Source: a bacterium (GTDB lineage Bacteria > Patescibacteriota > Saccharimonadia > CAILAD01 > BJGX01). Taken from it: 57,396 nucleotides of DNA. The position numbers were made by a program, and so were the translations under genes. The DNA is taken from NCBI GenBank assembly GCA_029778565.1, contig JAKOQC010000181.1, positions 1-57,396 on the forward strand, in the 5' to 3' direction. Under the pieces are notes generated by a model. That model worked only from the letters and a program-made list of their open reading frames with translations. It was not told the origin of the DNA and searched no databases. Every line of letters starts with the position of its first letter. Within the stretch, counting starts at the first letter, position 1. Below, piece by piece: positions 6,224 to 42,156 of this stretch.

Positions 6224-7255
6224 ATGAGCAATTTTACTAACAAAACCTTATTAATTACCGGTGGAACTGGTTCTTTTGGTAATACGGTTTTACGCCGTTT
6301 TTTAAAAACAGACATTAAAGAAATTCGAGTGTTTTCCCGAGATGAGAAAAAGCAGGATGATATGCGAAAAGCATTGGGCAGTGATAAGGTAAAATTTTAC
6401 ATTGGTGATGTAAGAAACCCGGAGAGTATACATGATGCATTGGTGGCTGTAGATTATGTGTTTCATGCAGCAGCACTTAAACAAGTGCCCTCGTGTGAAT
6501 TTTTCCCAATGGAAGCAGTTAGAACAAATGTTTTAGGCACAGACAATGTATTAAACGCAGCCATTCGTGAAGGCGTAAAAAAGGTAGTGTGTCTGTCTAC
6601 CGATAAAGCTGCTTACCCAATTAATGCTATGGGCACATCTAAAGCAATGATGGAGAAAGTAATTGTTGCCAAGTCTCGAACGGTCGATCCCAAAAATACC
6701 ACCATTTCAGTTACTCGTTATGGGAATGTTATGGCCTCTCGCGGCTCTGTAATACCACTTTTTATTGAGCAAATTAAGGCAGGAAAGCCGCTCACTATTA
6801 CTGATCCAACTATGACTCGCTTTTTAATGAATTTAGATGAAGCCGTAGACTTAGTATTATTTGCGTTCGAGAATGCTAATCAAGGAGATCTGTTTGTTCA
6901 GAAATCACCAGCCTCCACAATTGAAGTGTTGGCCCAAGCAGTAAAAGAACTATTTGAGGCAAAGAATGAGATAAAAATTATTGGTACGCGTCATGGTGAA
7001 AAGAAAGATGAAACCTTGCTTACGCGCGAAGAACGGGTAAAGGCCGATGATTTAGGTGGATATTTTAGAGTTCCGGCCGACACAAGAGATCTAAATTACG
7101 GTAAGCTAGAGGGAGGGACTAAAAAAATATCTGATGCGCTGGAATATACATCCGATAATACTGATAGGCTTAATGTAGAAGAAGTTAAGAAAAAACTTCT
7201 TACTGTAGAGTACGTTAAGGCAGAGCTAGATAACAAAAAAGGAGAATTGTTATAA
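6224..7255 (+). CDS. UDP-GlcNAc 5-inverting 4,6-dehydratase (FnlA/CapE/WbvB type)
   Basis: An extended SDR of about 343 residues with GGTGSFG at the N-terminus, HAAALKQVP, and STDKAAYPINAMGTSK. In that last motif MxxxK stands in place of YxxxK, as in CapE/PseB-type dehydratases. Family members start the route from UDP-GlcNAc to UDP-L-FucNAc or UDP-L-QuiNAc. The gene is followed by an RmlD-like reductase and a WbuB-like transferase, the order expected for that route, but no 2-epimerase (FnlC/WbvD) lies in the window. ATG 6224 has a close GGAG; GTG 6215 is an alternative. Product assignment is by family, not proven. Confidence 0.85.
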   Translation: MSNFTNKTLLITGGTGSFGNTVLRRFLKTDIKEIRVFSRDEKKQDDMRKALGSDKVKFYIGDVRNPESIHDALVAVDYVFHAAALKQVPSCEFFPMEAVRTNVLGTDNVLNAAIREGVKKVVCLSTDKAAYPINAMGTSKAMMEKVIVAKSRTVDPKNTTISVTRYGNVMASRGSVIPLFIEQIKAGKPLTITDPTMTRFLMNLDEAVDLVLFAFENANQGDLFVQKSPASTIEVLAQAVKELFEAKNEIKIIGTRHGEKKDETLLTREERVKADDLGGYFRVPADTRDLNYGKLEGGTKKISDALEYTSDNTDRLNVEEVKKKLLTVEYVKAELDNKKGELL

Positions 7256-8118
7256 AAGCTAAAAATATACTTGTATTAGGTGCGGCCGGGATGGCTGGCC
7301 ATGTGGTTTCGTTATATTTACGAGAACAGGGCTTTGATGTAAAAACCCTTTCAGCACATAACAAGCTAGACGAAAACACCACTCTCCTGGATGTTACAAA
7401 TACAGAGGGACTAAAAAAATATCTCGATAATAATAAGTTTGATGTAGTAGTTAACTGTATTGGTCTGCTTATTAAACAAAGTGAAGAGCGTAAAGATTTG
7501 GCAGTTTATCTTAATGCATATTTACCACATTACTTAGAGAATTATTATAGAGATACTACAACAAAGCTGATTCATCTCAGTACCGATTGTGTTTTCTCAG
7601 GTAAAAACCCACCGTATAAAGAAGATAGTTGGTTTGATGGTGAGTTATTTTATGATCGAAGTAAAGCACTTGGCGAGATTGTTAACAACAAAGATCTCAC
7701 ATTTAGAATGTCAATTATTGGGCCGGATATGCAGGAAAATGGCGTTGGATTATTTAATTGGTTTTATGCCCAAAGTGGAGAAATATTTGGTTTTACTAAG
7801 GCAGTTTGGAATGGAATTACTACTATTGAACTGGCTAAGGCAATTAAGGCAGCAATAGAGCAAGATTTAATCGGACTCTATCAATTAGTACCAGACAGTA
7901 ATATTACTAAGTATGATCTGCTTAAATTATTTAAGCAAGAATTTGATCGTGATGATATAACAATTAAGCCCAGAGATGAGGTTTCTCTGGATAAAACATT
8001 AATAAATAGCAGAGATGATTTTAATTTTAAGGTTCCAGACTATCAAACAATGGTGCATGAAATGTATGAATGGGTCCAGCAGCACAGTAACTTATACCCC
8101 CAATACCTCAAACAGTGA
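7252..8118 (+). CDS. RmlD-like nucleotide-sugar reductase (WbvR type) with apparent ATA start
   Basis: A 288-residue SDR with the cofactor loop GAAGMAG near residue 10, STDCVFSG, and a YDRSKALGE YxxxK pair. It most likely reduces the 4-keto product of the preceding dehydratase. The first canonical start in frame is ATG 7291, which lies inside the cofactor loop and would delete the first beta strand. Between the upstream in-frame stop (TAA 7231-7233) and 7291 there is no ATG, GTG or TTG. AAAAAAGGAG (7235-7244) points to ATA 7252, 7 bases downstream and overlapping the previous stop; ATT 7246 is too close. The start is therefore noncanonical, or the sequence contains an error. Confidence 0.75.
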   Translation: MKAKNILVLGAAGMAGHVVSLYLREQGFDVKTLSAHNKLDENTTLLDVTNTEGLKKYLDNNKFDVVVNCIGLLIKQSEERKDLAVYLNAYLPHYLENYYRDTTTKLIHLSTDCVFSGKNPPYKEDSWFDGELFYDRSKALGEIVNNKDLTFRMSIIGPDMQENGVGLFNWFYAQSGEIFGFTKAVWNGITTIELAKAIKAAIEQDLIGLYQLVPDSNITKYDLLKLFKQEFDRDDITIKPRDEVSLDKTLINSRDDFNFKVPDYQTMVHEMYEWVQQHSNLYPQYLKQ

Positions 8119-29954: not shown

Positions 29955-30269
29955 ATGAAAAAAGATACTCGAAAATATATTGATAGGCGGGATTATCTAA
30001 TTGCTGCAGTTGCCAAAAGACGTAAGGTACTAAAAGAAAAATCAGTACAATACAAAGGTGGTAAGTGCGAGCTATGTGGCTACGAGAAATGTATTGAAGC
30101 CTTGGATTTTCATCATAAAGATCCAAAAACAAAGAAATTTGGCATTAGCCATAAAGGATATACTCGCAGCTGGCAGGATGTGCAAGGCGAACTAGATAAG
30201 TGTGTTTTGGTTTGTGCAAATTGCCATAGAGAGATAGAAGCAGGAGTATCAAACATTAATCCGGGGTAG
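29955..30269 (+). CDS. HNH endonuclease-like protein running into the tRNA gene
   Basis: A 104-residue protein with an HNH core: Cys38/Cys41 (CELC), His53-His54 (DFHH), and Cys83...Cys87-Cys90-His91 (VCANCHRE), with a basic helical N-terminus. HNH proteins of this size cut or nick DNA and include homing-type and free-standing forms. The last codons and the stop are made from the first 10 bases of the tRNA-Asn gene, so coding sequence and tRNA overlap. Since that tRNA carries a group I intron, a past link as a homing endonuclease is possible but unproven. Confidence 0.75.
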   Translation: MKKDTRKYIDRRDYLIAAVAKRRKVLKEKSVQYKGGKCELCGYEKCIEALDFHHKDPKTKKFGISHKGYTRSWQDVQGELDKCVLVCANCHREIEAGVSNINPG

Positions 30270-30561
30270 CTCAGTGGTAGAGCAGTTGGCTGTAAATTGA
30301 TGCAGCGTTTAGTGGTAACACTAAGATGAAAATAGGGTGAATTGCGGGAAGCCTAAGTGAGAATATGGTAATCCGCAGCCAAGCCAAGAAGAGCAAAGGT
30401 TTCTTGGAAGGTTCAGAGACTAGAGGGTGAGACTCAACAATAATCTCTCAGATAGCGCCCTACATCCGTCATGGCGGATGATGATATAGTCCATTCCCAT
30501 TTGAAAATTTGGGGTAGATGTAACCAATTGGTCGCTGGTTCGAATCCAGTCCCCGGAGCCA
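30260..30561 (+). tRNA. tRNA-Asn(GTT), split by a group I intron in the anticodon
   Basis: Exons are 30260-30293 and 30521-30561. The 7-bp acceptor stem pairs 30260-30266 with 30551-30557, then G and an encoded CCA (30559-30561). The D-arm is 30269-30283, the anticodon stem GTTGG/CCAAT is 30285-30289 with 30524-30528, the variable loop has 5 bases, and the T-arm is 30534-30550 with loop TTCGAAT. Joined, the loop reads CTGTTAA with anticodon GTT. The unspliced loop reads CTGTAAA and would be mistaken for Tyr(GTA), but bacterial tRNA-Tyr has a long variable arm. The GCCA end also fits Asn. Confidence 0.93.
30294..30520 (+). ncRNA. Group I self-splicing intron in tRNA-Asn
   Basis: It has 227 bases and no ORF. 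The 5' exon ends in U and the intron ends in G. P1: exon GCTGT pairs with GCAGC (30302-30306), leaving the expected U-G at the splice site. P2 is TTAGTG-GTAA-CACTAA. P3 is TAGGGTG with CGCCCTA, P4 is TTGCGG with CCGCAG, P6 is CCAAGAA with TTCTTGG, P7 is GACTA (30419-30423) with TAGTC, and P8 is CATCCG with CGGATG. The stretch GTTCAGAGACTAGAG is the classic R element. A 33-base extension between P7 and P3 resembles P7.1/P7.2, which suggests an IA-like layout. It should splice out by itself with guanosine. Confidence 0.9.
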
Positions 30562-30576
30562 AAGAACTTATGCTTT

Positions 30577-30603
30577 AAAGATCTGAAATATGGTCTTTTT
30601 TTT
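30577..30603 (+). terminator. Terminator after tRNA-Asn
   Basis: AAAGATC pairs with GGTCTTT (one T-G pair), loop of 8 bases, then a run of eight T. Confidence 0.7.
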
Positions 30604-30605
30604 GA

Positions 30606-30611
30606 TATGAT
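30606..30611 (+). promoter_or_regulatory. Extended -10 TGATATGAT, leaderless type
   Basis: TATGAT preceded by TGA; ends 6 bases before ATG 30618. The T-tract of the terminator occupies the region where a -35 box would partly lie. Confidence 0.6.
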
Positions 30612-30617
30612 TAATTA

Positions 30618-31091
30618 ATGAAAAAGAATGTAATCATAATCATATCTGGTTTAGCATTACTTTTACTGGCTATAATTATTGTAAGCACACTCTATCTTTT
30701 TAGGCTACCGAGACAAACATTGCGGTACAAAGACCAGGTTTTCTCAGTTGAATTCTCTAATGATGCTACTACATTTACAGACCCAGCATCAGGACTTAAT
30801 TATTTAACAAGCAAAAAGTTGAATATGGGTATTGGAATTAATAATTCTACATCTCAAAAAGATTGTGGACAAAGTGGGTCAAAAACCTACCAACAAATCA
30901 ATGTTAGTGGAAATTTATACTCACTATGTGCAGGCACAAATACAGAAACCGGCAAGCCTGCATTTTGGACAGTTAATTTTGCCATAAATAGTAGGTGGTA
31001 CAGTGCAACACTGATCCCAAATAGTACTGATACTATCATTTCACAAAAGCAGGCTGCAGAAATATTTTCTAGTATTCAAATGTCAAACTAG
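30618..31091 (+). CDS. Small membrane-anchored protein, unknown
   Basis: A 157-residue protein with a strong N-terminal membrane helix (about 5-28) and an outer domain of about 125 residues. The two outer cysteines (QKDCGQ and SLCAGT) could form a disulfide. The domain is beta-rich and ends in a short helix (KQAAEIFSSIQ). I do not recognise a family. It is the first single-gene unit after the tRNA, with its own promoter and with module B starting at its stop codon. Confidence 0.6.
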   Translation: MKKNVIIIISGLALLLLAIIIVSTLYLFRLPRQTLRYKDQVFSVEFSNDATTFTDPASGLNYLTSKKLNMGIGINNSTSQKDCGQSGSKTYQQINVSGNLYSLCAGTNTETGKPAFWTVNFAINSRWYSATLIPNSTDTIISQKQAAEIFSSIQMSN

Positions 31092-31133
31092 TTCTAACTT
31101 CCATCACCACGCGGAGCCAAAGAACTTATGCTT

Positions 31134-31157
31134 AAAAGACCCATTGGGTCTTTTTTT
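31134..31157 (+). terminator. Terminator in module B
   Basis: AAAAGACCC pairs with GGGTCTTTT (9 bp, loop ATT) and runs into seven T. Confidence 0.8.
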
Positions 31158-31159
31158 GA

Positions 31160-31165
31160 TATGAT
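31160..31165 (+). promoter_or_regulatory. Extended -10 TGATATGAT before the Nudix gene
   Basis: Six bases before ATG 31172. Confidence 0.6.
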
Positions 31166-31171
31166 GTATTG

Positions 31172-31720
31172 ATGGATACAAAAATAGATATTTATGATAA
31201 AGACGAGAATCCTTTACATAAAACCGCAACCTATGATGAGGTGAGAAAAAATGGACTGTGGGCACGTGGTGTACATATTATTTTATACACACCGTCAAAA
31301 AAAGTTGTAATGCAAAAACGTAGTAAAAAGCTCGATTATCATCCTGGTGAAATAGAAGTGTCGGTAGGTGGTGGAGTAAAAGCTGGAGAAACAACAGAAC
31401 AAGCAATTATACGTGAGGTTAGAGAAGAAACCGGAATTAATCTTTCGGCAAAAGATATTAAATATATTGGTAAAAATAAGTTTAGTCGTAGGTATAAAAG
31501 AAATGGGCATAAGTATTATATGAAAGATTTTATTTATTCATATTCAGCACAAATACCTGAAAATATTGAGTTTAAGCCAGAAGATGATGAGGCTCAAGAA
31601 TTATTTTTGCTACCCCTAAATCAAGTAAAACGTTCTGTGCGAAAACATTATGTTTTACACTTCGGTAGATTAGCCTCTATGTATAGCTATTGGTTGTATT
31701 TACTTCGATCGATAGAATAG
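31172..31720 (+). CDS. Nudix hydrolase
   Basis: A 182-residue protein with a complete Nudix box: GGGVKAGETTEQAIIREV followed by REETGI, fitting Gx5Ex7REUxEExGU. The N-terminal MDTKIDIYDKDENPLHK and the overall plan resemble the isopentenyl-diphosphate-isomerase-like Nudix group (YfcD type), which hydrolyse nucleoside or other diphosphates. The start is ATG 31172, six bases after the -10; the in-frame TTG 31169 is not needed. A broken copy of its first 38 bases lies at 41065-41102. Confidence 0.85.
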   Translation: MDTKIDIYDKDENPLHKTATYDEVRKNGLWARGVHIILYTPSKKVVMQKRSKKLDYHPGEIEVSVGGGVKAGETTEQAIIREVREETGINLSAKDIKYIGKNKFSRRYKRNGHKYYMKDFIYSYSAQIPENIEFKPEDDEAQELFLLPLNQVKRSVRKHYVLHFGRLASMYSYWLYLLRSIE

Positions 31721-31762
31721 TCCTAACTTCCACTACCACCTGGAGCCATAGTACTTATGCTT

Positions 31763-31787
31763 AAAGAAGCCGCCAAGGCTTCTTTTT
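31763..31787 (+). terminator. Terminator in module C
   Basis: AAAGAAGCC pairs with GGCTTCTTT (9 bp, loop GCCAA), then T5. The same hairpin is in module F. Confidence 0.8.
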
Positions 31788-31789
31788 GA

Positions 31790-31795
31790 TATAGT
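31790..31795 (+). promoter_or_regulatory. Extended -10 TGATATAGT before the GNAT gene
   Basis: Six bases before ATG 31802. Confidence 0.55.
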
Positions 31796-31801
31796 ATTGT
31801 A

Positions 31802-32332
31802 ATGGAGCCCAAACCAATGCCGCCAGAAGATGAACCCAAAGTTGAAATAAAACTGTGTAGCGAGAATGATTTAGTGTTACTCAATAAAGCCATTCCCGAA
31901 CCAGGCTATCATGAAAGACGATTTGCATCGCAACAAGATGGTAAGGCTAGCTACTTGCTGGCTTGGCAAAATGGTGTGCCAGTTGGCCATCTATTAATAA
32001 AGTGGGAAGGCAGTGGGCCACAGGTAAATAAATATCTGCCCGATACGCCCGAACTAAATGCAATTGGGGTCTGGCCACCAAAAAATCGTTCCAAAGGAAT
32101 AGGCGGACAATTAATAGAAAAAGCTGAGGGAATGGCGAAAGAGAAAGGCTTCAAACAAGTAGCTCTCGCAGTTGAAATAGATAACTCTCGTGCAAAAGAA
32201 CTATATGAGAAGTTGGGGTATATGGATTGGGGTCATGGAGAATACATTGATGAATGGGTAGAAAAAGGCGATGACGGTGAAGAAACACAACACAAAGACC
32301 CCTGCTACTATTTGGTTAAGAATTTAGAATAA
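31802..32332 (+). CDS. GNAT-family N-acetyltransferase
   Basis: A 176-residue GNAT. The acetyl-CoA loop is RSKGIGGQLIEKAEG (fits R/QxxGxG/A), followed by QVALAVEIDNSRAKELYEKLGY, the standard motif B. An N-terminal proline-rich stretch of 12 residues is unusual. Substrates of single GNATs cannot be told from sequence; small-molecule or protein amines are possible. It has its own promoter and shares terminator D with the convergent peptidase gene. Confidence 0.85.
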   Translation: MEPKPMPPEDEPKVEIKLCSENDLVLLNKAIPEPGYHERRFASQQDGKASYLLAWQNGVPVGHLLIKWEGSGPQVNKYLPDTPELNAIGVWPPKNRSKGIGGQLIEKAEGMAKEKGFKQVALAVEIDNSRAKELYEKLGYMDWGHGEYIDEWVEKGDDGEETQHKDPCYYLVKNLE

Positions 32333-32337
32333 AACTA

Positions 32338-32403
32338 GTTCTAACTTCTGTTACTACACGGAACCAAAGTACTTATGCTTAAAGACCTGAAAAGGTCTTT
32401 TTT
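32338..32403 (+). repeat. Cassette module D, between convergent genes
   Basis: GTTCTAACTTC, then CGGAACCA (tRNA end with one change) at 32359-32366, AAGTACTTATGCTTAAA and the hairpin. The promoter part is absent because the next gene is inverted. Confidence 0.75.
32381..32403 (+). terminator. Terminator in module D
   Basis: AAAGACC pairs with GGTCTTT (7 bp, loop of 6) followed by T3; serves the GNAT gene and lies just past the stop of the minus-strand peptidase gene. Confidence 0.7.
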
Positions 32404-33028
32404 AGGTTTGAAACACCAACACCTCGCCATCCCTAACTGTTTTGTATTTGATACCATGTTCTTCACAATACTGTATTCCACGGTCTATGGCTTCTGTTTC
32501 TGGGTGGACAGATTTGTAATGTGGCATAAAAGCAAAATCAACCAAGCCTAGGCCTTCCCAGATAATTTCGTTCCAGCCCTCATATGGTGTAATTGTAGCA
32601 TCACCTACTACTTTATAAGGTTCGAGAGAAGGCGCCAGCAAACAACCAGCCGCGCTGTAGCCTGAATAGAGAAAATCTGCGTTATTTTTTGCTAGTTCAA
32701 TAAGAACCCTGTCTAGCCCACACAGTCTCATAGCCTGGCGCAGCACAAAAACATTGCCACCCATTATAAAAACAGCGCCATAACTTCTAACTTTTGCTTC
32801 TACCTCGTCATTTTTGCCAAAATAATCTTTTAAGTCTAGTACTTCGACATTAAACCCAATTTCTTCTAGCCGCATCTTCTTGTTTGCAATGGCATTTAAC
32901 GACTGGTCGTCATCAAAAGCCCGAAAGTCTAACGCATTCGGAATAACCCAAATATTATCAGTTGGCGCCATAGCTTTGAGCTGATCTTTTTTATTACCGA
33001 ATTTAAAAGATGACAAATAGAATTTCAT
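32402..33028 (-). CDS. Peptidase family S51 protein (dipeptidase E-like)
   Basis: About 208 residues in an alpha/beta fold. The likely nucleophile Ser is in YSGYSAAGCLL, preceded by FIMGGNVFVLRQAM, and the histidine region is FMPHYKSVHPETEAI. S51 enzymes split Asp-X dipeptides, but several relatives have other roles. A longer frame from ATG 33064 exists, but ATG 33028 is the start: TACAAT (33035-33040 on the minus strand) is six bases upstream and the homology begins at MKFYLSSF. It is the only inverted gene in the array. Confidence 0.8.
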   Translation of the reverse strand: MKFYLSSFKFGNKKDQLKAMAPTDNIWVIPNALDFRAFDDDQSLNAIANKKMRLEEIGFNVEVLDLKDYFGKNDEVEAKVRSYGAVFIMGGNVFVLRQAMRLCGLDRVLIELAKNNADFLYSGYSAAGCLLAPSLEPYKVVGDATITPYEGWNEIIWEGLGLVDFAFMPHYKSVHPETEAIDRGIQYCEEHGIKYKTVRDGEVLVFQT

Positions 33029-33034
33029 ACTATT

Positions 33035-33040
33035 ATTGTA
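33035..33040 (-). promoter_or_regulatory. -10 box TACAAT (minus strand), leaderless type
   Basis: Six bases before ATG 33028; decides that start over the ATG 12 codons upstream, which the promoter itself would exclude. Confidence 0.55.
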
Positions 33041-33075
33041 CTTGTAAACATACTTAATCAACAATGCCGCGACTT

Positions 33076-33098
33076 AAAAGACCCATCTGGGTCTTTTT
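33076..33098 (+). terminator. Terminator in module H
   Basis: AAAAGACCC pairs with GGGTCTTTT (9 bp, loop ATCT), T-tract of five. No plus-strand gene lies directly upstream. Confidence 0.7.
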
Positions 33099-33100
33099 GA

Positions 33101-33106
33101 TATACT
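33101..33106 (+). promoter_or_regulatory. Extended -10 TGATATACT before the methyltransferase gene
   Basis: Six bases before ATG 33113. Confidence 0.58.
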
Positions 33107-33112
33107 TGATGT

Positions 33113-33862
33113 ATGAAGCTTTCTGAATCGACCAAAATGAATCAACAATCTTATGATGCTCATGCCGAAGAGTGGCATGCAGCTAAAGATATTAATTATG
33201 GCCATCGTTTTTTAGAAAAGCCTGCCATGTATAGCCAACTACCACACAGCTTAGAGGGCAAAGAAGTACTGTGTATAGGTGTAGGGTCAGGTGAGGAACT
33301 AGAAGAGTTAGTAAAATTAACACCTAAAAAGATAGTTGCAATCGACATTTCGGCTAATTTACTTAAGCTTGCGAAGAAAGAATTTCCACACGTTGAGTTT
33401 CATCAAATGAACATGATGAAGTTAGCTTTTGCAGACAATAGTTTTGATATGGTGTATTCGAGCTTAGCATTTCACTATACTAACGATTGGGATAAGCTGC
33501 TTAAAGAGATGTATAGAGTATTGAGGATGAGAGGAATATTGTTATTCTCAACACATAACCCAGAATATTGGAAGAATAAGCCAGCAACCGGACAAAAACA
33601 CGTAAATGCTAGAGGTGTAGAAACCCTCGAACACACTGCCTCGTTGGGCAAGATTGAGATTGTTTATTACAACCTTCCAAACTTACAGGCAATTGACGAG
33701 GCGGTGACGCATGCCGGTTTTGTAATAAAGAATGCGTTTACGCCAAGTGTAGTGAATGATGGAGTTTACTCTTTAAATAAATCTGAGCTTGAGGTACTCG
33801 AAACTTTAAAAACAAAGAACAATGCCACTCCTTTGTTTTATGTTGTGAATGCAGAGAAGTGA
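33113..33862 (+). CDS. Class I SAM-dependent methyltransferase
   Basis: A 249-residue protein of the methyltransferase-11 (UbiE/Smt-like) type. Motif I is VLCIGVGSGEELEEL, then VAIDISANLLKLAKK, FDMVYSSLAFHY and LYRVLRMRGILLFSTHNP-like segments (MYRVLRMRGILLFSTHN here). Substrate unknown; small molecules are usual. Monocistronic, leaderless-type promoter, module E at its end. Confidence 0.83.
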   Translation: MKLSESTKMNQQSYDAHAEEWHAAKDINYGHRFLEKPAMYSQLPHSLEGKEVLCIGVGSGEELEELVKLTPKKIVAIDISANLLKLAKKEFPHVEFHQMNMMKLAFADNSFDMVYSSLAFHYTNDWDKLLKEMYRVLRMRGILLFSTHNPEYWKNKPATGQKHVNARGVETLEHTASLGKIEIVYYNLPNLQAIDEAVTHAGFVIKNAFTPSVVNDGVYSLNKSELEVLETLKTKNNATPLFYVVNAEK

Positions 33863-33908
33863 TTGGTTCTGGCTTCTATCACCACCCGGAGCCAAAGTAT
33901 TTATGCTT

Positions 33909-33932
33909 AAAAGACCCGAAAGGGTCTTTTTT
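33909..33932 (+). terminator. Terminator in module E
   Basis: AAAAGACCC pairs with GGGTCTTTT (9 bp, GAAA tetraloop) followed by T2 more. Confidence 0.8.
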
Positions 33933-33934
33933 GG

Positions 33935-33940
33935 TACAAT
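33935..33940 (+). promoter_or_regulatory. -10 box TACAAT before the ATP-grasp gene
   Basis: Eight bases before ATG 33949, slightly longer than the usual six or seven. Confidence 0.45.
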
Positions 33941-33948
33941 AATAACCA

Positions 33949-34770
33949 ATGAATATCTTATTAATTAGTGACCCGGAATTACGTAACGCTGTCACCTGGG
34001 AAGAGTGGCTAAAAAGTGAAGGCCATAGGGTAGCACACATACAAACCCTACCTACCAACTGGGCAAAAGGCAATATACCATCATTTGATTTAGTCATTCC
34101 ATTAATCACTATTAGGGATTATACCGATAGGACAACCAGAAGATATGACCTTGTTAAATTCTTAGAAAACGATAATTATAGGTTACTCAACTCAACACGA
34201 ACAATAGATTTGTCTTCAGACAAATCTTTAACTTATAAAGCATGGTCAAAGGCCGGTATATCTCAACCAAAAACTTTTAAACTATCTAGCTTATCAAAAT
34301 GGCCAATGAAAAATGAAAAAATGGTTTTTAAACCAATCTTTGGGCATAGTGGTGACCACATACTACTGGTCTCGTCACTAGATGAGGCGGCACGACACAG
34401 TACTGCACTGGGTCTAGATGCTATCCTGCAAGAGTATATTAAGTCGCCTAAGTGTATCAGAATGATTTGTTCAAAAAAAGTAGTGCTGAGTTGTTACGAA
34501 AAATACATCCCTGGCAGAGTTGTGGCAAATGTAGCCAAAGGTGCTTTAAGACATTCATTTTCTCCAGGTAATGAGCTGGTAGAACTGGCATTTAAAATGA
34601 TGAAAACAATTGATGCCAATTTAGCAGGTCTAGATATATTAATTAGTGGCAGCAACTATTATGCGTTAGAAGCAAACATACCCTTTGGATTTGATAAAAA
34701 AGACAACAAATTAAGAGGACATCTCATGAAAGTCATTAGTGGATATGGAGGTATGCGGTCTGCTGATTAA
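33949..34770 (+). CDS. ATP-grasp (RimK/YheC-like) ligase
   Basis: A 273-residue protein. The N-terminal third (ILLISDPELRNAV, FDLVIPLITIRDYTDR) is the preATP-grasp part. Then come SSDKSLTYKAWSKAGI, MVFKPIFGHSGDHILLV (ATP-binding Lys and glycine loop), LQEYIKSPKCIRMIC, and the metal/ATP end YYALEANIPFGFD. These enzymes join a carboxylate to an amine using ATP. The substrate is not evident. Single-gene unit with no module at its 3' end; a decayed stretch follows instead. Confidence 0.8.
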   Translation: MNILLISDPELRNAVTWEEWLKSEGHRVAHIQTLPTNWAKGNIPSFDLVIPLITIRDYTDRTTRRYDLVKFLENDNYRLLNSTRTIDLSSDKSLTYKAWSKAGISQPKTFKLSSLSKWPMKNEKMVFKPIFGHSGDHILLVSSLDEAARHSTALGLDAILQEYIKSPKCIRMICSKKVVLSCYEKYIPGRVVANVAKGALRHSFSPGNELVELAFKMMKTIDANLAGLDILISGSNYYALEANIPFGFDKKDNKLRGHLMKVISGYGGMRSAD

Positions 34771-34807
34771 GTATTTTAAGCCGGGTGTAAGAGAAGCTTT
34801 TCTTTAA

Positions 34808-34981
34808 TGGCGTATCATACCTGGCCAAATCATAGATTCGACATATCAAAGCCTACATGCGGTCAATCAATTCAAATACATGCTTTTGAAACATGGTTAT
34901 ATGTTTATTTACTTTATGCCTCCAAAAAATAAAGCAGATGATTTGTTTAATTCAAAATACAAGCAGTTTATAGTAAAATAA
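34808..34981 (+). pseudogene. Possible C-terminal gene remnant without a start
   Basis: A 57-codon open stretch between stops, with no start near its beginning, reads like real protein (IIDSTYQSLHAVNQFKYM then HGYMFIYFMPPKNKADD). It ends at TAA 34981. I do not recognise it. It may be the tail of a gene lost by deletion. The rest of the 34771-35005 spacer holds only the Shine-Dalgarno of the next gene. Confidence 0.35.
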
Positions 34982-35005
34982 ATAAATAAATAGGAGACAC
35001 AAATA

Positions 35006-35680
35006 GTGGAACATTTGAATCAAGTTCAGCCAGAATCTATGCCTAAAAAAGATAAAGCTGCTGAAAATTATGCAGCTGAAAGAGCTAAAAACTTCAAAAC
35101 AATTCTCGATACATTAACCGCTGCTCTTAGCAAGAACGAAGATGTTGATCGAAATGATCTACTTGCTGTAGATGGATATATAGATGCAGAAGGAATTACT
35201 CGTTATCGTCAAGAAGTTGGTCCAGTTAAATTTGATAATACTAAAGAAGGTGATTTACAAGCTAGCTATGAAGAAATAGATGACTGGGAAGACTTGTTAC
35301 CGAATGGCGTTGTTGACTATATCAAAACAGAAACTGCAAGATGGAAACGAACGGGTGAAGATTTAGAGCTACATGTACGTTATTTGGGAGTAGCATTCGC
35401 ACCCCCCAGATATACAGAAGGATATGGTGGTTGGCACACTGCAACTCAACCAGAAGAAGGCTGGTACGTACAAGTGGATACACCTGATGAAGTATATGAG
35501 AATGTATTTTCTGTTGATGTTGATGTTTATAAAGAAATGACCAAGGAAGACAAACTTGCTTATTTAAAGTATTTGCAAGAATGGGTATCTACTGGTAAGT
35601 ATAAAGACTATATGTATGAGGACAAAGCAAAAGAATATGATGATAAAGCCAGAGAGTATCAAGAAAGGGGTAATAACTAA
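35006..35680 (+). CDS. Unrecognised 224-residue soluble protein
   Basis: An acidic, highly charged protein with no signal or membrane helix. The N-terminal 55 residues are helical (KDKAAENYAAERAKNFKTIL), the middle is rich in aromatic residues (HVRYLGVAFAPPRYTEGYGG), and the C-terminus is a Lys/Glu helix. The start is GTG 35006 with AGGAGA (34992-34997) 8 bases upstream; it is one of few array genes with a clear Shine-Dalgarno. No family is recognised; similar proteins could exist in related genomes. Confidence 0.6.
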   Translation: MEHLNQVQPESMPKKDKAAENYAAERAKNFKTILDTLTAALSKNEDVDRNDLLAVDGYIDAEGITRYRQEVGPVKFDNTKEGDLQASYEEIDDWEDLLPNGVVDYIKTETARWKRTGEDLELHVRYLGVAFAPPRYTEGYGGWHTATQPEEGWYVQVDTPDEVYENVFSVDVDVYKEMTKEDKLAYLKYLQEWVSTGKYKDYMYEDKAKEYDDKAREYQERGNN

Positions 35681-35747
35681 CTAATACGAAAGAACATATG
35701 AGGCACCTCATTCTTATCTAGCACACGGAGCCAAAGTATTAATTTTT

Positions 35748-35772
35748 AAAGAAGCCGCCATGGCTTCTTTTT
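35748..35772 (+). terminator. Terminator in module F
   Basis: AAAGAAGCC pairs with GGCTTCTTT (9 bp, loop GCCAT), then T-tract. Confidence 0.8.
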
Positions 35773-35774
35773 GA

Positions 35775-35780
35775 TATGAT
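35775..35780 (+). promoter_or_regulatory. Extended -10 TGATATGAT before the permease gene
   Basis: Six bases before ATG 35787. Confidence 0.6.
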
Positions 35781-35786
35781 ATAGAT

Positions 35787-36908
35787 ATGAATGCAATTGC
35801 TCATGCGCTATCAATTGCTTTTGCAATGGGCTGGGAGATACTCTGGGCTTTAATTCTCGGTTTCTTTTTATCTGCAATAGTACAAGCGGTTGTTAGAAAA
35901 TCGAGTATTGTAAAGCTTATGCCAGACGACTCAGCAAAAACCTTAGCTATTGCTGCTGGGCTAGGTGCTGCCTCTTCTTCTTGCTCTTATGCAGCGGTGG
36001 CATTGGCCCGCTCGTTATTTCGCAAAGGGGCAAATTTTACCGCCGCCTGTGCATTTGAGATAGCTTCTACAAATTTAGTTATCGAGCTAGGAATTATTAT
36101 GGCTATTTTGCTGGGCTGGCAATTTACCTTAGCAGAATTTGTGGGCGGACCAATTATGATACTTATTCTCGCTGTGTTATTTCGGCTTACGTTACGTAAA
36201 GATATACTCAAAGCCGCCTTCGAGCAGGCTAACAAAGGAGTTGCCGGAAGAATGGAGGGTCATGCTGCTATGGATATGAGTGTTGAAGGTAACAAGAGTA
36301 TTTGGCAAAAAATGTTTTCTGCAAAAGGCTTTACCTCAATAAGTGAATATTTTGTTATGGATTGGGGAGCCGTCTGGAAAGATATTGTTGGAGGATTATT
36401 GATAGCTGGCGCTATTGCTGCTTGGATACCGCAAGAATGGTTTGCTAAGTTTTTCTTTACTGGGCATCCTATATTTAGCAAAATTTGGGGGCCATTAATT
36501 GGACCATTTATTTCAGTAATCAGTTTTGTATGTTCGATAGGTAATGTTCCTTTGGCGGCTGTGTTATGGAATAGCGGTATTAGTTTTGGTGGGGTTATTA
36601 GTTTTATTTTTGCCGATCTAATTGTTATTCCAATATTACTGATTTATCGTAAATACTACGGAACCAAAATGATGCTATATAAGTTTGTAACTTTTTATAT
36701 TGCTATGGTACTAGCTGGATATTCAGTTGAAATTATCTTTAGTATTTTCCATTTAATCCCTAGCACCCACAACGCAACTGTATTAGAAGCCAGCATAAGT
36801 TGGAACTATACAACGATTCTCAATATTATCTTTCTTATTCTTGCTGTGACATTGTTAATTCGTTTTATTCTCTCGGGCGGAGTTAAAATGTATAAGATGA
36901 TGAATTAG
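35787..36908 (+). CDS. Predicted permease, DUF318/ArsP-like
   Basis: A 373-residue protein with about eight to ten membrane helices. The family hallmarks are GLGAASSSCSYAAVALARSLF near residue 60 and its inverted-repeat counterpart SVISFVCSIGNVPLAAVLW near 250. The first matches the CSC/CSY region around which ArsP binds methylarsenite. Between the halves is a hydrophilic loop (about 150-190). It may export organoarsenicals or an unknown small solute. No arsR or arsM is nearby, so the substrate is open. Confidence 0.8.
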   Translation: MNAIAHALSIAFAMGWEILWALILGFFLSAIVQAVVRKSSIVKLMPDDSAKTLAIAAGLGAASSSCSYAAVALARSLFRKGANFTAACAFEIASTNLVIELGIIMAILLGWQFTLAEFVGGPIMILILAVLFRLTLRKDILKAAFEQANKGVAGRMEGHAAMDMSVEGNKSIWQKMFSAKGFTSISEYFVMDWGAVWKDIVGGLLIAGAIAAWIPQEWFAKFFFTGHPIFSKIWGPLIGPFISVISFVCSIGNVPLAAVLWNSGISFGGVISFIFADLIVIPILLIYRKYYGTKMMLYKFVTFYIAMVLAGYSVEIIFSIFHLIPSTHNATVLEASISWNYTTILNIIFLILAVTLLIRFILSGGVKMYKMMN

Positions 36909-36969
36909 GTGTATTTTTCTTGTTGCTGTTGAAACTTATGGACGAGAGAAGATATTAGTAAATTTTTGG

Positions 36970-36975
36970 TATGAT
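36970..36975 (+). promoter_or_regulatory. -10 box TATGAT, leaderless GTG start
   Basis: Six bases before GTG 36982; no Shine-Dalgarno. Confidence 0.55.
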
Positions 36976-36981
36976 GAGAGA

Positions 36982-37542
36982 GTGAAGAATAGCAATAAAA
37001 TACCAGGTCTAAAAAAATTTCTCATTGTTTTGGCTATCGTAGTTATTTATTTGCTAATATCTGTTTTGCAGTTTGGGTTGAAGGATGGATTTATTGTAAC
37101 GATAGTGAGTTGGTCATTTTTTGTATTTTGCACCCCTATTGCTGATGCAGGTTTTTTGCTTGATTTTCCAGTCCGATTAGTGACAGGAGTCCGCATGCTC
37201 AATACCGAAATTATCGTTTGGGCTATAGCCGCTACCGTTAATGTAATAACCTTATTAAGTAATCCGGCAATTTACCAAAAAACAGCCTTGTTGCAACTTT
37301 TTTATCAAATTATAACAAAACCATGGCCGCTATGGCTTATTATTCTACTATCAGCTGTTGGTACATTTGTGTCGATCTATTTAGGAGATGATGCTTTTGA
37401 TATTGTGGTATCAAATAATAAGTTGTCTATGTACAAAAGAGACAAAATACGTATTTATTTCTCAGCTGTAATCTTTATATTAACCGGAATATTGTATTTT
37501 GCATTATTATATCTTACCCATATAAATATAAAAGTAATCTAG
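36982..37542 (+). CDS. Unrecognised multi-pass membrane protein
   Basis: A 186-residue protein with four or five hydrophobic helices (about 14-32, 38-60, 75-92, 112-132, 155-178) and a short charged loop (YLGDDAFDIVVSNNKLSMYKRDKIR). The GTG start is chosen by the -10 box six bases upstream. No family recognised. Follows the permease after 73 bases and has its own promoter. Confidence 0.55.
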   Translation: MKNSNKIPGLKKFLIVLAIVVIYLLISVLQFGLKDGFIVTIVSWSFFVFCTPIADAGFLLDFPVRLVTGVRMLNTEIIVWAIAATVNVITLLSNPAIYQKTALLQLFYQIITKPWPLWLIILLSAVGTFVSIYLGDDAFDIVVSNNKLSMYKRDKIRIYFSAVIFILTGILYFALLYLTHINIKVI

Positions 37543-37623
37543 ATTCATCAATCCAAAAGATTTAGTTAAGTTTTTGTATTATATTTTTGCAAAAGAAGAG
37601 TCTGAGTTTGGTAGTATATTCTT

Positions 37624-38469
37624 ATGAATAAAAATATACATACTCATATACAAAGACCCTATTGGCATGTAGATCTAAAATGGATATTTGGTATAGGAAG
37701 CTACCTCATCCTTGTGATACTGGTGTTATGTATTGGGTTTTACCAGCTAACAACTCAAAAAGTAGCTGTAGCAATTATTAGTAATGGAGCTGCTGCTATT
37801 ATCAACCCAGAGGCGAGTGAAAATACAAATACCATCGTTGAAATAAAACAAAAAATGGATACAGAACATACTGATATATTTTATCCTTTTCCAGATCATT
37901 CAATAGTGATAACCAGAGAGGATGTAAATACACTTTCAGCTAAAGAGATAGAAAATAAAGTGTATATGCAATTGGCAGAAGCAATTTATAACAATAAGCT
38001 GACCACAGTTGATGCTTCTGGCCAATCTCAAAATAGTTCATTGCAAAAATTTGGTGTATTAGCAGTATTTACTAGTCAGTTTCATAACAATATAGGCAGT
38101 ATTTTATTGGTGTTAATATTCCCATTACTATTATTTTTAAGCCTAACCATTTACTTTAGTGCTGGATATGGACGACTAATCTCTCCTGCAATAGTGATAT
38201 TAATAGCTACTGGACCGCTATGTTTGGTAACACTGATTACCTCTGCCTTATTGCATCGCAGTTCTTCTCAAATCGGGAGTGTTGTTGATCAATCAGGCAG
38301 AGTAGATAATGCAATTTCTACTGTATTGCCCATAACAACCACTGAGTTAGTAAGAACATATGGACTAATTAGCCTTATAGCTATTATCCTCTTTGTTATT
38401 GCTACTATAGGCAAAGTGTTACAAATAATGAAAAACCGAAGCAGTAATCTTGCATTGCCAAAAAAATAA
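37624..38469 (+). CDS. Unrecognised membrane protein with outer domain
   Basis: A 281-residue protein. One helix at about 22-44 is followed by an outer region of about 95 residues (45-140) with many Asn, Thr and Glu. Three more helices lie at about 155-178, 188-212 and 246-266. A TAGTAT six bases before ATG 37624 could be the -10. No family recognised; topology is read from hydrophobicity only. Confidence 0.55.
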   Translation: MNKNIHTHIQRPYWHVDLKWIFGIGSYLILVILVLCIGFYQLTTQKVAVAIISNGAAAIINPEASENTNTIVEIKQKMDTEHTDIFYPFPDHSIVITREDVNTLSAKEIENKVYMQLAEAIYNNKLTTVDASGQSQNSSLQKFGVLAVFTSQFHNNIGSILLVLIFPLLLFLSLTIYFSAGYGRLISPAIVILIATGPLCLVTLITSALLHRSSSQIGSVVDQSGRVDNAISTVLPITTTELVRTYGLISLIAIILFVIATIGKVLQIMKNRSSNLALPKK

Positions 38470-38592
38470 CCAACCATTATCTTGTGAGTTGGCTAGCTAT
38501 TTTCTCCTAAACAATATCCATAATTTAGTATATATATAGTAAATTTATACAGAACAATATTTAATATAGAGGACCCATAAAGTCTTTTTTGT

Positions 38593-38598
38593 TATGAT
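38593..38598 (+). promoter_or_regulatory. Extended -10 TGTTATGAT, leaderless type
   Basis: Follows a T6 tract (38585-38590) and ends 7 bases before ATG 38606. The weak hairpin around GACCCATAAAGTC just upstream looks like a decayed cassette terminator. Confidence 0.5.
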
Positions 38599-38605
38599 AC
38601 CTATT

Positions 38606-38869
38606 ATGGAGAGTAATCCCAATAAACAAATTTCTGGAGGTGTAGTTCATAAGCTGCCTTTAGATTTACGAACAGCACTTATTGCTTCGCCAGATGCGCT
38701 AAAAGAATGGGAAGATATTACTCCGTTAGCGAGGAACGAATGGATCTGTTGGGTAATTTCGGTAAAGAAAGAGGAGACAAGAGCCCAACATATAAAAAGA
38801 GTACCAGAAGAATTATTAACTGGTAAGCGTCGTCCGTGTTGTTGGGCAGGGTGTCCACATCGAAGATAG
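38606..38869 (+). CDS. YdeI/OmpD-associated (OmdA) family protein with Cys-rich tail
   Basis: About 87 residues. The core LPLDLRTALIASPDALKEW followed by TPLARNEWICWVISVKKEETR and RAQHIKRVPEELLTGK is the OmdA (PF13376) helical domain. The end PCCWAGCPHRR adds three cysteines and a His and could bind a metal. The start is ATG 38606 by the -10 position; ATG 38594 overlaps the box. Role of the family is unknown. Confidence 0.78.
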   Translation: MESNPNKQISGGVVHKLPLDLRTALIASPDALKEWEDITPLARNEWICWVISVKKEETRAQHIKRVPEELLTGKRRPCCWAGCPHRR

Positions 38870-38942
38870 TGTATAGAATAAAACTGATCACAGATGCCCA
38901 TGTAAATATCGTGATACAATAAAAGCATAAGAGGTTAAAAAA

Positions 38943-39119
38943 ATGGCAAAAAATAGTAATACACACAACAACTCAATTATTGGAGGGGTGGTTTTAGTAG
39001 TACTAGGAATTATCTTCTTGTTACAAAGTTATCTTCATATAGATATCTTAGACAAATTATGGCCACTCATTCTGGTAGCGGTTGGTATTGTGATAATCTT
39101 CAATTCTACTCGGCGTTAA
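38943..39119 (+). CDS. 58-residue LiaI/DUF5668-like membrane protein
   Basis: Two helices (about 11-29 and 36-53) around a short loop with LHIDILDKLWPLILVAVG, the pattern of the DUF5668/LiaI N-terminal region. It has GAGG (38931-38934) about 8 bases before ATG and a TACAAT at 38915-38920, so its transcript does have a leader. Such proteins are found near envelope-stress genes; here it stands alone. Confidence 0.68.
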   Translation: MAKNSNTHNNSIIGGVVLVVLGIIFLLQSYLHIDILDKLWPLILVAVGIVIIFNSTRR

Positions 39120-39223
39120 TAGGTATCAATACCACCGAAATAAATAATAACCATTAATATGAAACATAATCTAAAAACAGCAGCCAATAAGTAACTAGAC
39201 CACTTTAACAACAACTAATCTGA

Positions 39224-39229
39224 TATGAT
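39224..39229 (+). promoter_or_regulatory. Extended -10 TGATATGAT before the CDF gene
   Basis: Six bases before ATG 39236; same sequence as in the cassette modules but without the hairpin. Confidence 0.58.
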
Positions 39230-39235
39230 ATTTCT

Positions 39236-40129
39236 ATGTCTCATAGTCACGACCACAGCAACCATAGCCTAGACAATCGTTTTAAGCTTGGCTTTGTATT
39301 AAACACAGGCTTTATGATTTTTGAGCTTATTGTAGGTATTGCTATAGGCAGCCTTGCTCTTATTTCAGATGCAGCTCACAATCTATCTGACTCACTTTCC
39401 CTAGTCATTGCTTGGCTTGGCAATAGAATTTCTAAAAAACCAGCAGATAGTAAACGCACATTCGGATATGGACGAGCTGGCATACTTACAGCCTTGGTAA
39501 ACAGCTCAATCCTTATAGGAATCGCTTTGTTTATCATCGCCGAGGCTTATCAACGATTTATGCACCCCGAACCCGTTGCTGGCGGAGTTATAGCAATCGT
39601 GGCTGGGGTTGGGATTATTGTGAATGGTGCAGTTGCATTATTGTTTCTAAAAGACCGCCACGACCTTAATGTTAAAGCGGCTTTTCTCAACATGGCTTTT
39701 GATGCTTTTGTCTCATTTGGGGCAGTTATTGCAGGTATTTTGATAGTGTTTACGAAACAATACTGGATAGACCCGTTGGTTGGTCTTATGATTGCACTTG
39801 CTTTAATATACGCAGCCGTTGGAATAGTAAAGGAAGCCACAAGAATACTACTAGAGGGTGTACCAAAAGGCTTGAAGATAGACGAAATACGCCAGTCAAT
39901 TGTGGATACCAGTGGTGTCTCTGGGGTAGATGATTTGCATGTCTGGGCACTATCCAGTAACGAGGTAGCATTAAGTTGTCATATCGTGCCCGAAAAGCAT
40001 ACTCTCAAAGAAATTGAGGAACTTAATAAACAACTAAAGAAAGAGTTAAAAGAAAAGTTTGGGATTAGTCACGCCACAATTGAGGCAGAGTTGGAAAATT
40101 GTCACGAGGACAAGGAAACTCACGATTGA
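39236..40129 (+). CDS. Cation diffusion facilitator, CzcD/ZitB-like
   Basis: A 297-residue metal/proton antiporter with six helices, a His-rich N-terminus (HSHDHSNH) and a cytoplasmic C-terminal domain. Helix 2 has DAAHNLSD (His48, Asp52), as in zinc exporters. In helix 5 the usual HxxxD is Asn152-xxx-Asp156 (LNMAFDAF). The metal site is therefore HD/ND, and selectivity may differ from zinc. It overlaps the VKOR gene by 4 bases, forming the clearest two-gene operon of the array. Confidence 0.88.
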   Translation: MSHSHDHSNHSLDNRFKLGFVLNTGFMIFELIVGIAIGSLALISDAAHNLSDSLSLVIAWLGNRISKKPADSKRTFGYGRAGILTALVNSSILIGIALFIIAEAYQRFMHPEPVAGGVIAIVAGVGIIVNGAVALLFLKDRHDLNVKAAFLNMAFDAFVSFGAVIAGILIVFTKQYWIDPLVGLMIALALIYAAVGIVKEATRILLEGVPKGLKIDEIRQSIVDTSGVSGVDDLHVWALSSNEVALSCHIVPEKHTLKEIEELNKQLKKELKEKFGISHATIEAELENCHEDKETHD

Positions 40130-40734
40130 AACAAGACAGTAAGCAACCAAAGCTAGTCAAAATCTTGCCTTACATTCTAATAGTCGCAGGCATTATTGGT
40201 TTAATTGCTTCGTTTGTCATCACAATTGAAAAACTCCATTTGTTACAGAACCCTGCTTACAATCCATCTTGTAGTATCAATCCCGTGGTAAGCTGCGGCC
40301 CAATAATGGCTTCAAAGCAAGCTAGTGCTTTTGGTTTCCCCAACCCCATACTTGGCCTTATAGGCTTTGCATTTGTGCTAAATGTGGGCGTAAGTATGCT
40401 TGCAGGCGGCAAGTTTAAGCGGTGGTATTGGCTATTATTTAACTTCGGAACCTTATTTGGCGTTGTTTTTGTACACTGGCTCATTTTTCAATCACTCTAT
40501 AGTATTAAGGCACTTTGTATCTACTGTATTGCGGTCTGGATTGTAACAATTCCAACTTTCTTATATACGACACTCTTTAACTTGCAAGCAGGAAATATCA
40601 AAGTTCCAGCAAAGTATGAAAAGGCGATATTATTTATTATTAGGCAGCACCTTAATATATTGGTTATTTGGTATTTTATAATTACGTTGATGGTACTATT
40701 TCAATTTTGGTATTATTGGAAGACAGTTATTTAG
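40126..40734 (+). CDS. Vitamin K epoxide reductase family protein
   Basis: A 202-residue membrane protein with four or five helices. Loop cysteines Cys49 and Cys57 (NPSCSINPVVSCGP) and the active-site CIYC (about 132-135) match bacterial VKOR, which reoxidises periplasmic disulfide catalysts and passes electrons to quinone. There is no fused thioredoxin domain. TTG 40126 is the start: AAGGAA lies 8 bases upstream and TTGA overlaps the previous stop; a TTG at 40099 is less likely. Disulfides are plausible in several secreted proteins of this window. Confidence 0.85.
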   Translation: MKQDSKQPKLVKILPYILIVAGIIGLIASFVITIEKLHLLQNPAYNPSCSINPVVSCGPIMASKQASAFGFPNPILGLIGFAFVLNVGVSMLAGGKFKRWYWLLFNFGTLFGVVFVHWLIFQSLYSIKALCIYCIAVWIVTIPTFLYTTLFNLQAGNIKVPAKYEKAILFIIRQHLNILVIWYFIITLMVLFQFWYYWKTVI

Positions 40735-40830
40735 CGAGAACTTTCTCACCATTAATTATTAGTTTCAGGGCATCCAGACTAAAGCCAAACTCTATTTTTC
40801 GGTTGCTGAATGCGTTCTGCAGCCCGAGCC

Positions 40831-40866
40831 AAGTAAAAAGACGAGAAACATCTCGTCTTTTTACTT
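40831..40866 (+). terminator. Strong intrinsic terminator after VKOR
   Basis: AAGTAAAAAGACGAG pairs perfectly with CTCGTCTTTTTACTT (15 bp, loop AAACAT). Works on either strand. Confidence 0.85.
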
Positions 40867-41026
40867 GCTTGTGAGATTTGAATTTGAGAAACAGATTACC
40901 GGCGTAGCCGGCTGGTTCGCAAGGAGCGAAAGGATCGCAGAAGCCGCAGGCTTTGAGAACCGAAGCGACGGAATAGCTAGCGAAGCGCAGCGTCATCCAG
41001 TCCCCGGAGCCAAAGTACTTATGCTT

Positions 41027-41050
41027 AAAAGACCCAGAAGGGTCTTTTTT
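41027..41050 (+). terminator. Terminator in module G
   Basis: AAAAGACCC pairs with GGGTCTTTT (9 bp, loop AGAA), then T2 more. Confidence 0.8.
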
Positions 41051-41052
41051 GA

Positions 41053-41058
41053 TATGAT
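41053..41058 (+). promoter_or_regulatory. Extended -10 TGATATGAT, six bases before a 4-codon frame
   Basis: The leaderless position is ATG 41065, whose frame stops after four codons. The phosphoesterase starts 21 or 30 bases further on. Confidence 0.55.
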
Positions 41059-41064
41059 GTAATA

Positions 41065-41102
41065 ATGGATACAAAATAGATATTTATGATAAAGATGAAA
41101 AA
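41065..41102 (+). pseudogene. Duplicated, frameshifted 5' end of the Nudix gene
   Basis: Bases 41065-41102 match the first 39 bases of the Nudix gene at 31172, with one A lost from an A-run and a few substitutions. The frame then reads M-D-T-K-stop. The upstream promoter and terminator are also near-identical between the two places. The similarity ends inside the phosphoesterase start region. Confidence 0.8.
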
Positions 41103-42156
41103 TAGCTCTAACAAACAATTGAATCAAAAGATAGTCTCAACTGAAATCTCACAAGAAGATATAAATATTGATAACAAACATTATGTGATTTTGTCGATAC
41201 TTATTGCTATCTTGGTGGCTACTTTGCTAGTTATGGTGGCTGTTGGTTTGCTATGGTGGCCATTTAATATAGTTAAAACTAGCAAAAGTACTGTTATTGC
41301 TCCTCCGGCAAAATTACAACCTTTAAAGATTGTGGCAGTGGGGGATATTGCATGCGATCCCACTAGCCCCAAAGCCAATGGCTTAGATCCTGTAGAGTGC
41401 CAAGATAAAAAAGTTAGAGAGCTGGTGAATAGTATAAATCCAGACAAGATACTCATTCTTGGTGATATTGCGTACGACAAGGGAACTACAGAGTCATTTA
41501 CTAACGGTTTTTATAAAACCTGGGGTGATATAAAAACTAAATTTTTGCCAGCTCCGGGAAATCACGAATATGGTACTAAGAATGCCGCTGGCTACTTTAA
41601 TTATTTTGGTTCTCAAGCAGGTGAGGGTTTGGCCGGGTATTATACTACCAAAATTGGTGATTGGTCTATCTATTCACTCAATTCTAATTGTCCAGAAACC
41701 AATGATTGTTCGGTAAATTCTACGCAAATAAACTGGTTAAAATCACAACTTCAGAATGATACTAATAAGTGTCAATTGGCGTTCTGGCACCATCCGCAGT
41801 TTAGTACCAGCAAACACAGTGTAGACCCAGCACAAACAAATCGTCTACCTAGTGCTTGGCAACTCCTACAGAACTCAAATGCAGAATTAGTGCTGAATGG
41901 TCATGAGCATAACTATGAAAAATTTGCACAACAATTGCTAGATGGAACAAAAAGTGACGATGGCATTAGAGAGTTTGTAGTAGGTACCGGGGGAAGATCG
42001 TTATATCAACAAGTACGACAAAATGCGAATAGCGAATATTTTTATTCTGGCTTTGGTGCCTTAGAACTCGAATTATACCCATCTTCTTATTCGTGGAAAT
42101 TTTATAATATCGATAACAAAATTTTAGATAGTGGTGTCGGCATCTGTAAAAGATGA
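41086..42156 (+). CDS. Membrane-anchored calcineurin-like metallophosphoesterase
   Basis: A 356-residue protein with a membrane helix at about 35-60 and an outer catalytic domain. All metal motifs are present: VGDIACD, LGDIAYDKG (GDxxY as in purple acid phosphatases), PGNHEYG, WHHPQFS and NGHEHNYE. It should hydrolyse phosphate esters outside the cell. The start is ATG 41086 or ATG 41095; both lie within the duplicated Nudix sequence, so the gene uses a borrowed promoter and 5' end. Confidence 0.85.
   Translation: MIKMKNSSNKQLNQKIVSTEISQEDINIDNKHYVILSILIAILVATLLVMVAVGLLWWPFNIVKTSKSTVIAPPAKLQPLKIVAVGDIACDPTSPKANGLDPVECQDKKVRELVNSINPDKILILGDIAYDKGTTESFTNGFYKTWGDIKTKFLPAPGNHEYGTKNAAGYFNYFGSQAGEGLAGYYTTKIGDWSIYSLNSNCPETNDCSVNSTQINWLKSQLQNDTNKCQLAFWHHPQFSTSKHSVDPAQTNRLPSAWQLLQNSNAELVLNGHEHNYEKFAQQLLDGTKSDDGIREFVVGTGGRSLYQQVRQNANSEYFYSGFGALELELYPSSYSWKFYNIDNKILDSGVGICKR

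Follow-up and report, generated by a model that had tools for sequence, protein, structure and literature searches.

A stretch before a Patescibacteria phosphoesterase gene is probably a truncated Nudix cassette from a tRNA-Asn-anchored array

The question raised by this locus was how the terminator, promoter and 5′ end of a Nudix gene came to stand a second time, with a broken reading frame, directly in front of a metallophosphoesterase gene. The window, that is, the whole 57,396-nt stretch of DNA that was analysed, came from a metagenome bin of 2.25 Mb in 633 contigs. This bin (G000) is large beside its relatives (0.4–1.7 Mb) and may hold more than one organism.

The two loci, 31112–31210 and 41005–41102, were aligned with approximately 88% identity over 99 columns and three 1-nt indels, and the part after the terminator alone gave an alignment score of 45, where 500 shuffles reached 14 at most, which bears out the near-identity proposed in the initial annotation. 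The shared alignment opens in the CGGAGCCA core (31112/41005), further upstream than the start given before (31147/41041), and both copies begin at a GGAGCCA core; downstream, the alignment takes in ~38 bases at the start of the Nudix ORF. The terminator stem loops are unequal between the copies (ATT versus AGAA), as are the bases between the −10 element and the ATG; at 88% identity, the duplication is not recent. Direct reading of positions 41065–41079 (ATG GAT ACA AAA TAG) gave Met-Asp-Thr-Lys-stop, with one A missing relative to the Nudix copy and the phosphoesterase ATG at 41086, 21 bases past the lost start at 41065, as annotated; a second in-frame ATG lies at 41095. The missing A sits in an A-run of a metagenome assembly, the sole source of the sequence read here. 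The resulting four-codon ORF stops before the phosphoesterase ATG, a start which the short frame would overrun without the loss of the A. The full Nudix ORF (31172–31720) matched PF00293, and the phosphoesterase (41086–42156) matched PF00149.

Searches of the window's own genome and 98 relatives returned just two copies of the coding part, both in its own genome (E values 4e-36 and 2.8e-17). No comparable copy of the stretch was found in the 98 relatives, and all other matches, those in the own genome included, were short terminator or promoter similarities or chance. This two-copy result ruled out a dispersed promoter repeat bearing no relation to the Nudix gene. In the same genus, a phosphoesterase homologue with 57% identity (G001, L029:4245) lacks the Nudix stretch and stands behind a different promoter, likewise of leaderless type, and the join in the window is therefore derived. 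Phosphoesterase homologues in G015, G042 and G054 had no array sites within the stretches read, and Nudix homologues in G096 and G106 (48% identity) lie outside arrays. The earlier proposal of recombination between modules of an array stands in so far as the stretch comes from the Nudix unit and the join is derived. It did not recognise that the modules adjoin a tRNA-Asn gene and have recombination sites as their borders, with the stretch starting exactly at such a site, and the duplicate looks like a truncated second cassette, not the product of a generic exchange. The features are listed below.

30260..30561, + strand: tRNA-Asn(GTT), found by ARAGORN with introns as tRNA-Asn (gtt) i(35,227)
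30283–30513, + strand: group I intron in tRNA-Asn(GTT) (Rfam RF00028, 98.5 bits)
From 30538, + strand: tRNA-Asn 3′ end, GTTCGAATCC...GGAGCCA, putative attB left half and array anchor
30562..31119, + strand: unit 1, with terminator, promoter, 157-aa membrane or secreted protein (30618–31091) and 3′ att motif (31091–31119)
31120..31748, + strand: unit 2, intact Nudix cassette, with ORF 31172–31720 (PF00293) and 3′ att motif (31720–31748)
31134–31154, + strand: terminator of unit 2, followed by −10 TATGAT (31160–31165) and ATG (31172)
31749..32366, + strand: unit 3, GNAT acetyltransferase cassette (31802–32332), with 3′ att motif (32338–32366)
32367..33894, + strand: unit 4, with peptidase S51 (32402–33064, minus strand), methyltransferase (33113–33862) and 3′ att motif (33866–33894)
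33895..35733, + strand: unit 5, with ATP-grasp protein (33949–34770), unknown protein (35006–35680) and degenerate att core (35713–35733)
35734..40825, + strand: variable stretch from the last cassette core to the non-coding unit, with genes for an ArsP-type permease, OmdA, cation efflux and unknown membrane proteins
40826..41012, + strand: non-coding unit with a terminator of its own, opening at a GAGCCA core
40995–41012, + strand: last 18 nt of the non-coding unit, equal to the tRNA-Asn 3′ end (ATCCAGTCCCCGGAGCCA)
41013..41102, + strand: probable truncated Nudix cassette, with att right arm, terminator, −10 TATGAT (41053–41058), lost start (41065) and MDTK-stop (41065–41079); Nudix ORF similarity ends near 41094–41102
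41086..42156, + strand: metallophosphoesterase, ATG 41086 or 41095, behind the probably captured promoter

The units of the array mostly hold one gene (some two), open with a terminator and a promoter-ATG segment, and end in GTTCTAACTTCCAYYACCACNCGGAGCCA. In most of them the terminator hairpin, which closes the preceding tRNA or gene, is followed by TATGAT about six bases before the ATG, a spacing which suggests leaderless transcription. The core CGGAGCCAAAGTACTTATGCTTAAA was found on the + strand at 30555, 31113, 31742, 32360, 33888, 35727 and 41006, and a 24-nt site pattern gave six matches in the window, with none expected by chance; no att motif was found in the window downstream of the phosphoesterase. 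The left flank of the variable region is partly syntenic with G004 and G007, and the right flank, from 43001, with G001 and G004; in G001, tRNA-Asn is followed by cassettes carrying other genes. The tRNA-Asn intron lies in the anticodon region, and the corresponding tRNA-Asn of G001 (L029:61-135) has no intron. Immediately before the window's tRNA-Asn, 29955–30269 encodes a small CxxC...HH protein resembling an HNH-type nuclease, with a Pfam zinc-ribbon match below cut-off only, which may relate to the intron. Non-coding units of ~150–190 bp that end in at least 18 nt of the host's own tRNA-Asn 3′ end were seen in the window (40826–41012) and in G001 and G004 (L029:1691-1847 and L028:7139-7304), and are possibly a second class of element.

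The cassette-site left arm GTTCTAACTTCCAYYACCACNCGGAGCCA is shared by Saccharibacteria and further Patescibacteria: model R1 detected it in 35 of the 393 class genomes and model R2 in 30 of 380 genomes of the phylum, and public records bearing the core carry the labels Saccharibacteria, ‘bacterium’ and Parcubacteria. Where flanks were readable, 26 genomes had a same-strand tRNA-Asn upstream of the motif; none was seen in seven genomes with at least 10 kb of upstream sequence, at least two of which are spurious regular-expression hits. The right half of the site varies by lineage, the conserved part being one half of an att site. Some families (L156, L162, L163) have long inverted repeats around GAGCCA, GTTATAACTT...AAGTTATAAC or GTTCTAAC...GTTAGAAC, and in several others (L033, L034, L079, L080) LexA and a cyclopropane-fatty-acid synthase-like gene stand just upstream of tRNA-Asn. 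Viral contigs had no match to the site pattern, to the tail pattern described below or to the recombinase of G032.

GTTC and GGAGCCA stood 22 nt apart in 56 of the 59 cassette sites, and 17 nt apart in 35 of the 36 tRNA-like ones. In serine integrases the zinc-ribbon motif occupies positions 16–24 in attP and 11–19 in attB, a 5-bp shift (PMC3783163). The two distances would correspond to this attP/attB shift, and both fit if the AG of GGAGCCA is taken as the centre, a position that we infer. With an attP half longer than the attB half by 5 bp, the sites have the geometry looked for in tRNA-Asn elements mobilised by a large serine recombinase (LSR). The stretch at 41013–41102 is best read as a truncated Nudix cassette, in an array inserted at tRNA-Asn by LSRs, whose promoter was captured by the phosphoesterase; we assign this reading a probability of about 0.68. 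The start of the copied stretch also bears on promoter replacement without cassette insertion, in which a template switch or gene conversion would have placed the Nudix terminator, promoter and start before the phosphoesterase by way of a shared TTTGATATGAT promoter and GATGAAAA microhomology. The G001 phosphoesterase promoter does have TTTGATATGAT in common with the Nudix promoter, and the join is located at the phosphoesterase start codon. A promoter-to-promoter switch, however, needs no att core, and the copied stretch opens exactly at one (GGAGCCA); moreover, the core of the copy at 41005 is preceded by a tRNA-like left arm that is absent from the Nudix copy. Such a replacement is unlikely.

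Evidence for the recombinase came from the antisense strand. Of 38 aligned sites, 37 have no stop in the reverse complement of the motif, and variability peaks at the third codon positions (0.82 bits, versus 0.50 and 0.51 at the other two). The frame reads WLRxVxEVRT (WLRVVxEVRT), an LSR C-terminal tail, and in other Patescibacteria it extends as far as YIPDL-stop. In G434 this tail follows, in frame, a partial LSR C-terminus that shares 57% identity with another LSR over 103 aa; a short C-terminal piece is apparently in frame with it in G581 and, more weakly, in G527. These in-frame joins are partial genes, and an intact LSR with the native tail was not found. Four LSRs convergent to tRNA-Asn end in its antisense, with the C-termini WLRRPDSNRQPSP (G032), WLRGLDSNQRPSG (G156 and G035) and WLRLLGSNQRHPR (G192); they end in WLR-GLDSNQ because the reading frame enters the tRNA. 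Their domains are Resolvase, Recombinase and zinc ribbon (PF00239, PF07508, PF13408), the zinc ribbon falling below cut-off in G035, and in G156, G192 and G035 a copy of the motif lies beyond the LSR, ~16–19 kb from tRNA-Asn. The genome to which the window belongs showed no LSR at tRNA-Asn; LSRs were present there at Trp and Asp, and matches on C206, C37 and C200 were not tied to a tRNA. No PF00239 gene was detected in the array genomes G001, G002, G013, G034 and G045. Other LSRs (L222, L226-L230, L234-L239) are convergent to tRNA-Trp, Leu, Pro, Asp, Met, Glu, Val and tmRNA, with C-termini that enter the tRNA in antisense, and tail exchange may be general in the phylum. In G013 (L030, G013:C21, ~7030–7552, minus strand), the tRNA-Met 3′ end (CCCCCGCTACCA) is repeated ~450 bp downstream, which suggests another tRNA-targeting element.

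Relic islands could also account for the ~16–19-kb elements that carry an LSR at one terminus and the motif at the opposite one, and for the partial LSR C-termini adjoining the motif in G434, G581 and G527. In that case LSR-carrying phages or islands would have integrated at tRNA-Asn one after another and shrunk to single genes, and the cassettes would have no dedicated mobility. This account has the att interpretation in common with the reading favoured here. It is rather doubtful, given that the units are uniformly short in several genomes, mostly one gene with terminator, promoter and motif, a regularity that decay alone would not give.

Arrays of single genes that all point the same way and share a conserved 3′ site, and inverted repeats such as GTTATAACTT...AAGTTATAAC in some lineages, would also be expected of an integron-type system, with a tyrosine integrase acting on attC-like hairpins and the tRNA end serving as attI. 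The sites in the window fold no better than shuffled sequences, with z-scores near 0 or weakly negative, and attC hairpins were rejected for the window; folding was seen at a few sites elsewhere, in other lineages. A XerA-like tyrosine recombinase was detected in every array genome tested, at ~143 bits, where TIGR02249 requires 265, and no such gene lies at the array; an IntI-type integrase was likewise rejected, and an integron-type origin is very improbable. Action of the housekeeping Xer on a dif-like right arm was also discarded, a similar palindrome at C618:5765 not being conserved in relatives.

In the truncated-cassette reading, the region from tRNA-Asn (30561) to ~41100 would be an array of small units, each composed of terminator, promoter, gene and a ~29-nt motif closing on GGAGCCA. 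The motif would be the attP left half for tRNA-Asn-specific LSRs and the tRNA-Asn 3′ end the attB left half, and circular cassettes would be inserted by an LSR supplied in trans, action in trans being the best-supported inference. As the 3′ end of the LSR gene would span attP, integration would swap the native tail (WLRxVxDVRT...YIPDL) for the antisense-tRNA tail (WLRGLDSNQ...). An older Nudix cassette would then have been truncated, and its terminator, promoter and first ~33–38 coding bases fused to the resident phosphoesterase gene at its start codon, presumably by deletion or template switch. The phosphoesterase is probably transcribed from the captured promoter, and its translation may involve re-initiation after the MDTK-stop.

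Among known systems, the arrangement comes close to serine-integrase att systems such as that of the A118/LI integrase. The tRNA-Asn-linked elements seen in relatives have the LSR domain set (PF00239, PF07508, PF13408), and the halves, ~24+2 nt for attP and 19+2 nt for attB with the motif shifted by 5 bp, resemble those of described serine integrases (PMC3783163). Unlike in those systems, attP here would overlap the LSR 3′ coding end, so that the tail would be exchanged on integration, and many small units bear the site without an LSR. Integrons are alike in their tandem, same-strand, mostly single-gene units, conserved 3′ recombination site and accessory cargo (here Nudix, GNAT, methyltransferase), but the array has no IntI and no consistent attC hairpin, tRNA-Asn replaces attI, and each unit has a terminator and promoter.

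SCC and SCCmec elements of staphylococci are moved by serine recombinases (ccr) and occur in tandem at one chromosomal site, some without recombinase genes. ACME has been described in tandem with SCCmec (PMC5964201). Such composite islands are alike in having serine recombinases and tandem elements at a single site, though the recombinase is probably only distantly comparable. SCC membership would call for ccr and an rlmH target, whereas the target here is tRNA-Asn and the units, of ~0.5–2 kb, hold a single gene or a pair. Like other islands at tRNA genes, tycheposons build up cargo at a tRNA 3′ end. They have been reported with tyrosine recombinases, whereas the enzyme linked to tRNA-Asn here is an LSR. 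Archaeal SSV-type ‘suicidal’ tyrosine integrases also have the recombination site within the integrase gene (PMC8371274); here the enzyme is a bacterial serine recombinase, and the tail alone would be exchanged, leaving the LSR body intact.

No description of such a system was found in the open-access literature searched, which is not the whole literature. We tentatively propose, at somewhat short of even odds, an integron-like capture platform in Patescibacteria, in which tRNA-Asn LSRs insert single-gene cassettes in trans, each with its own terminator and promoter, and the LSR tail is rewritten from native to antisense-tRNA on integration, a change that might switch the element from a free to an integrated state or back. 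In Patescibacteria, whose genomes are small, few routes of gene uptake have been described. A phylum-wide tRNA-anchored cassette array, if true, would be a concrete place to seek accessory genes, would add serine recombinases that target tRNA-Asn and whose att sites can be read, and would give a bacterial serine-recombinase parallel to the archaeal integrases with a site in their own gene. The truncated cassette would represent one way in which arrays can hand new promoters to resident genes.
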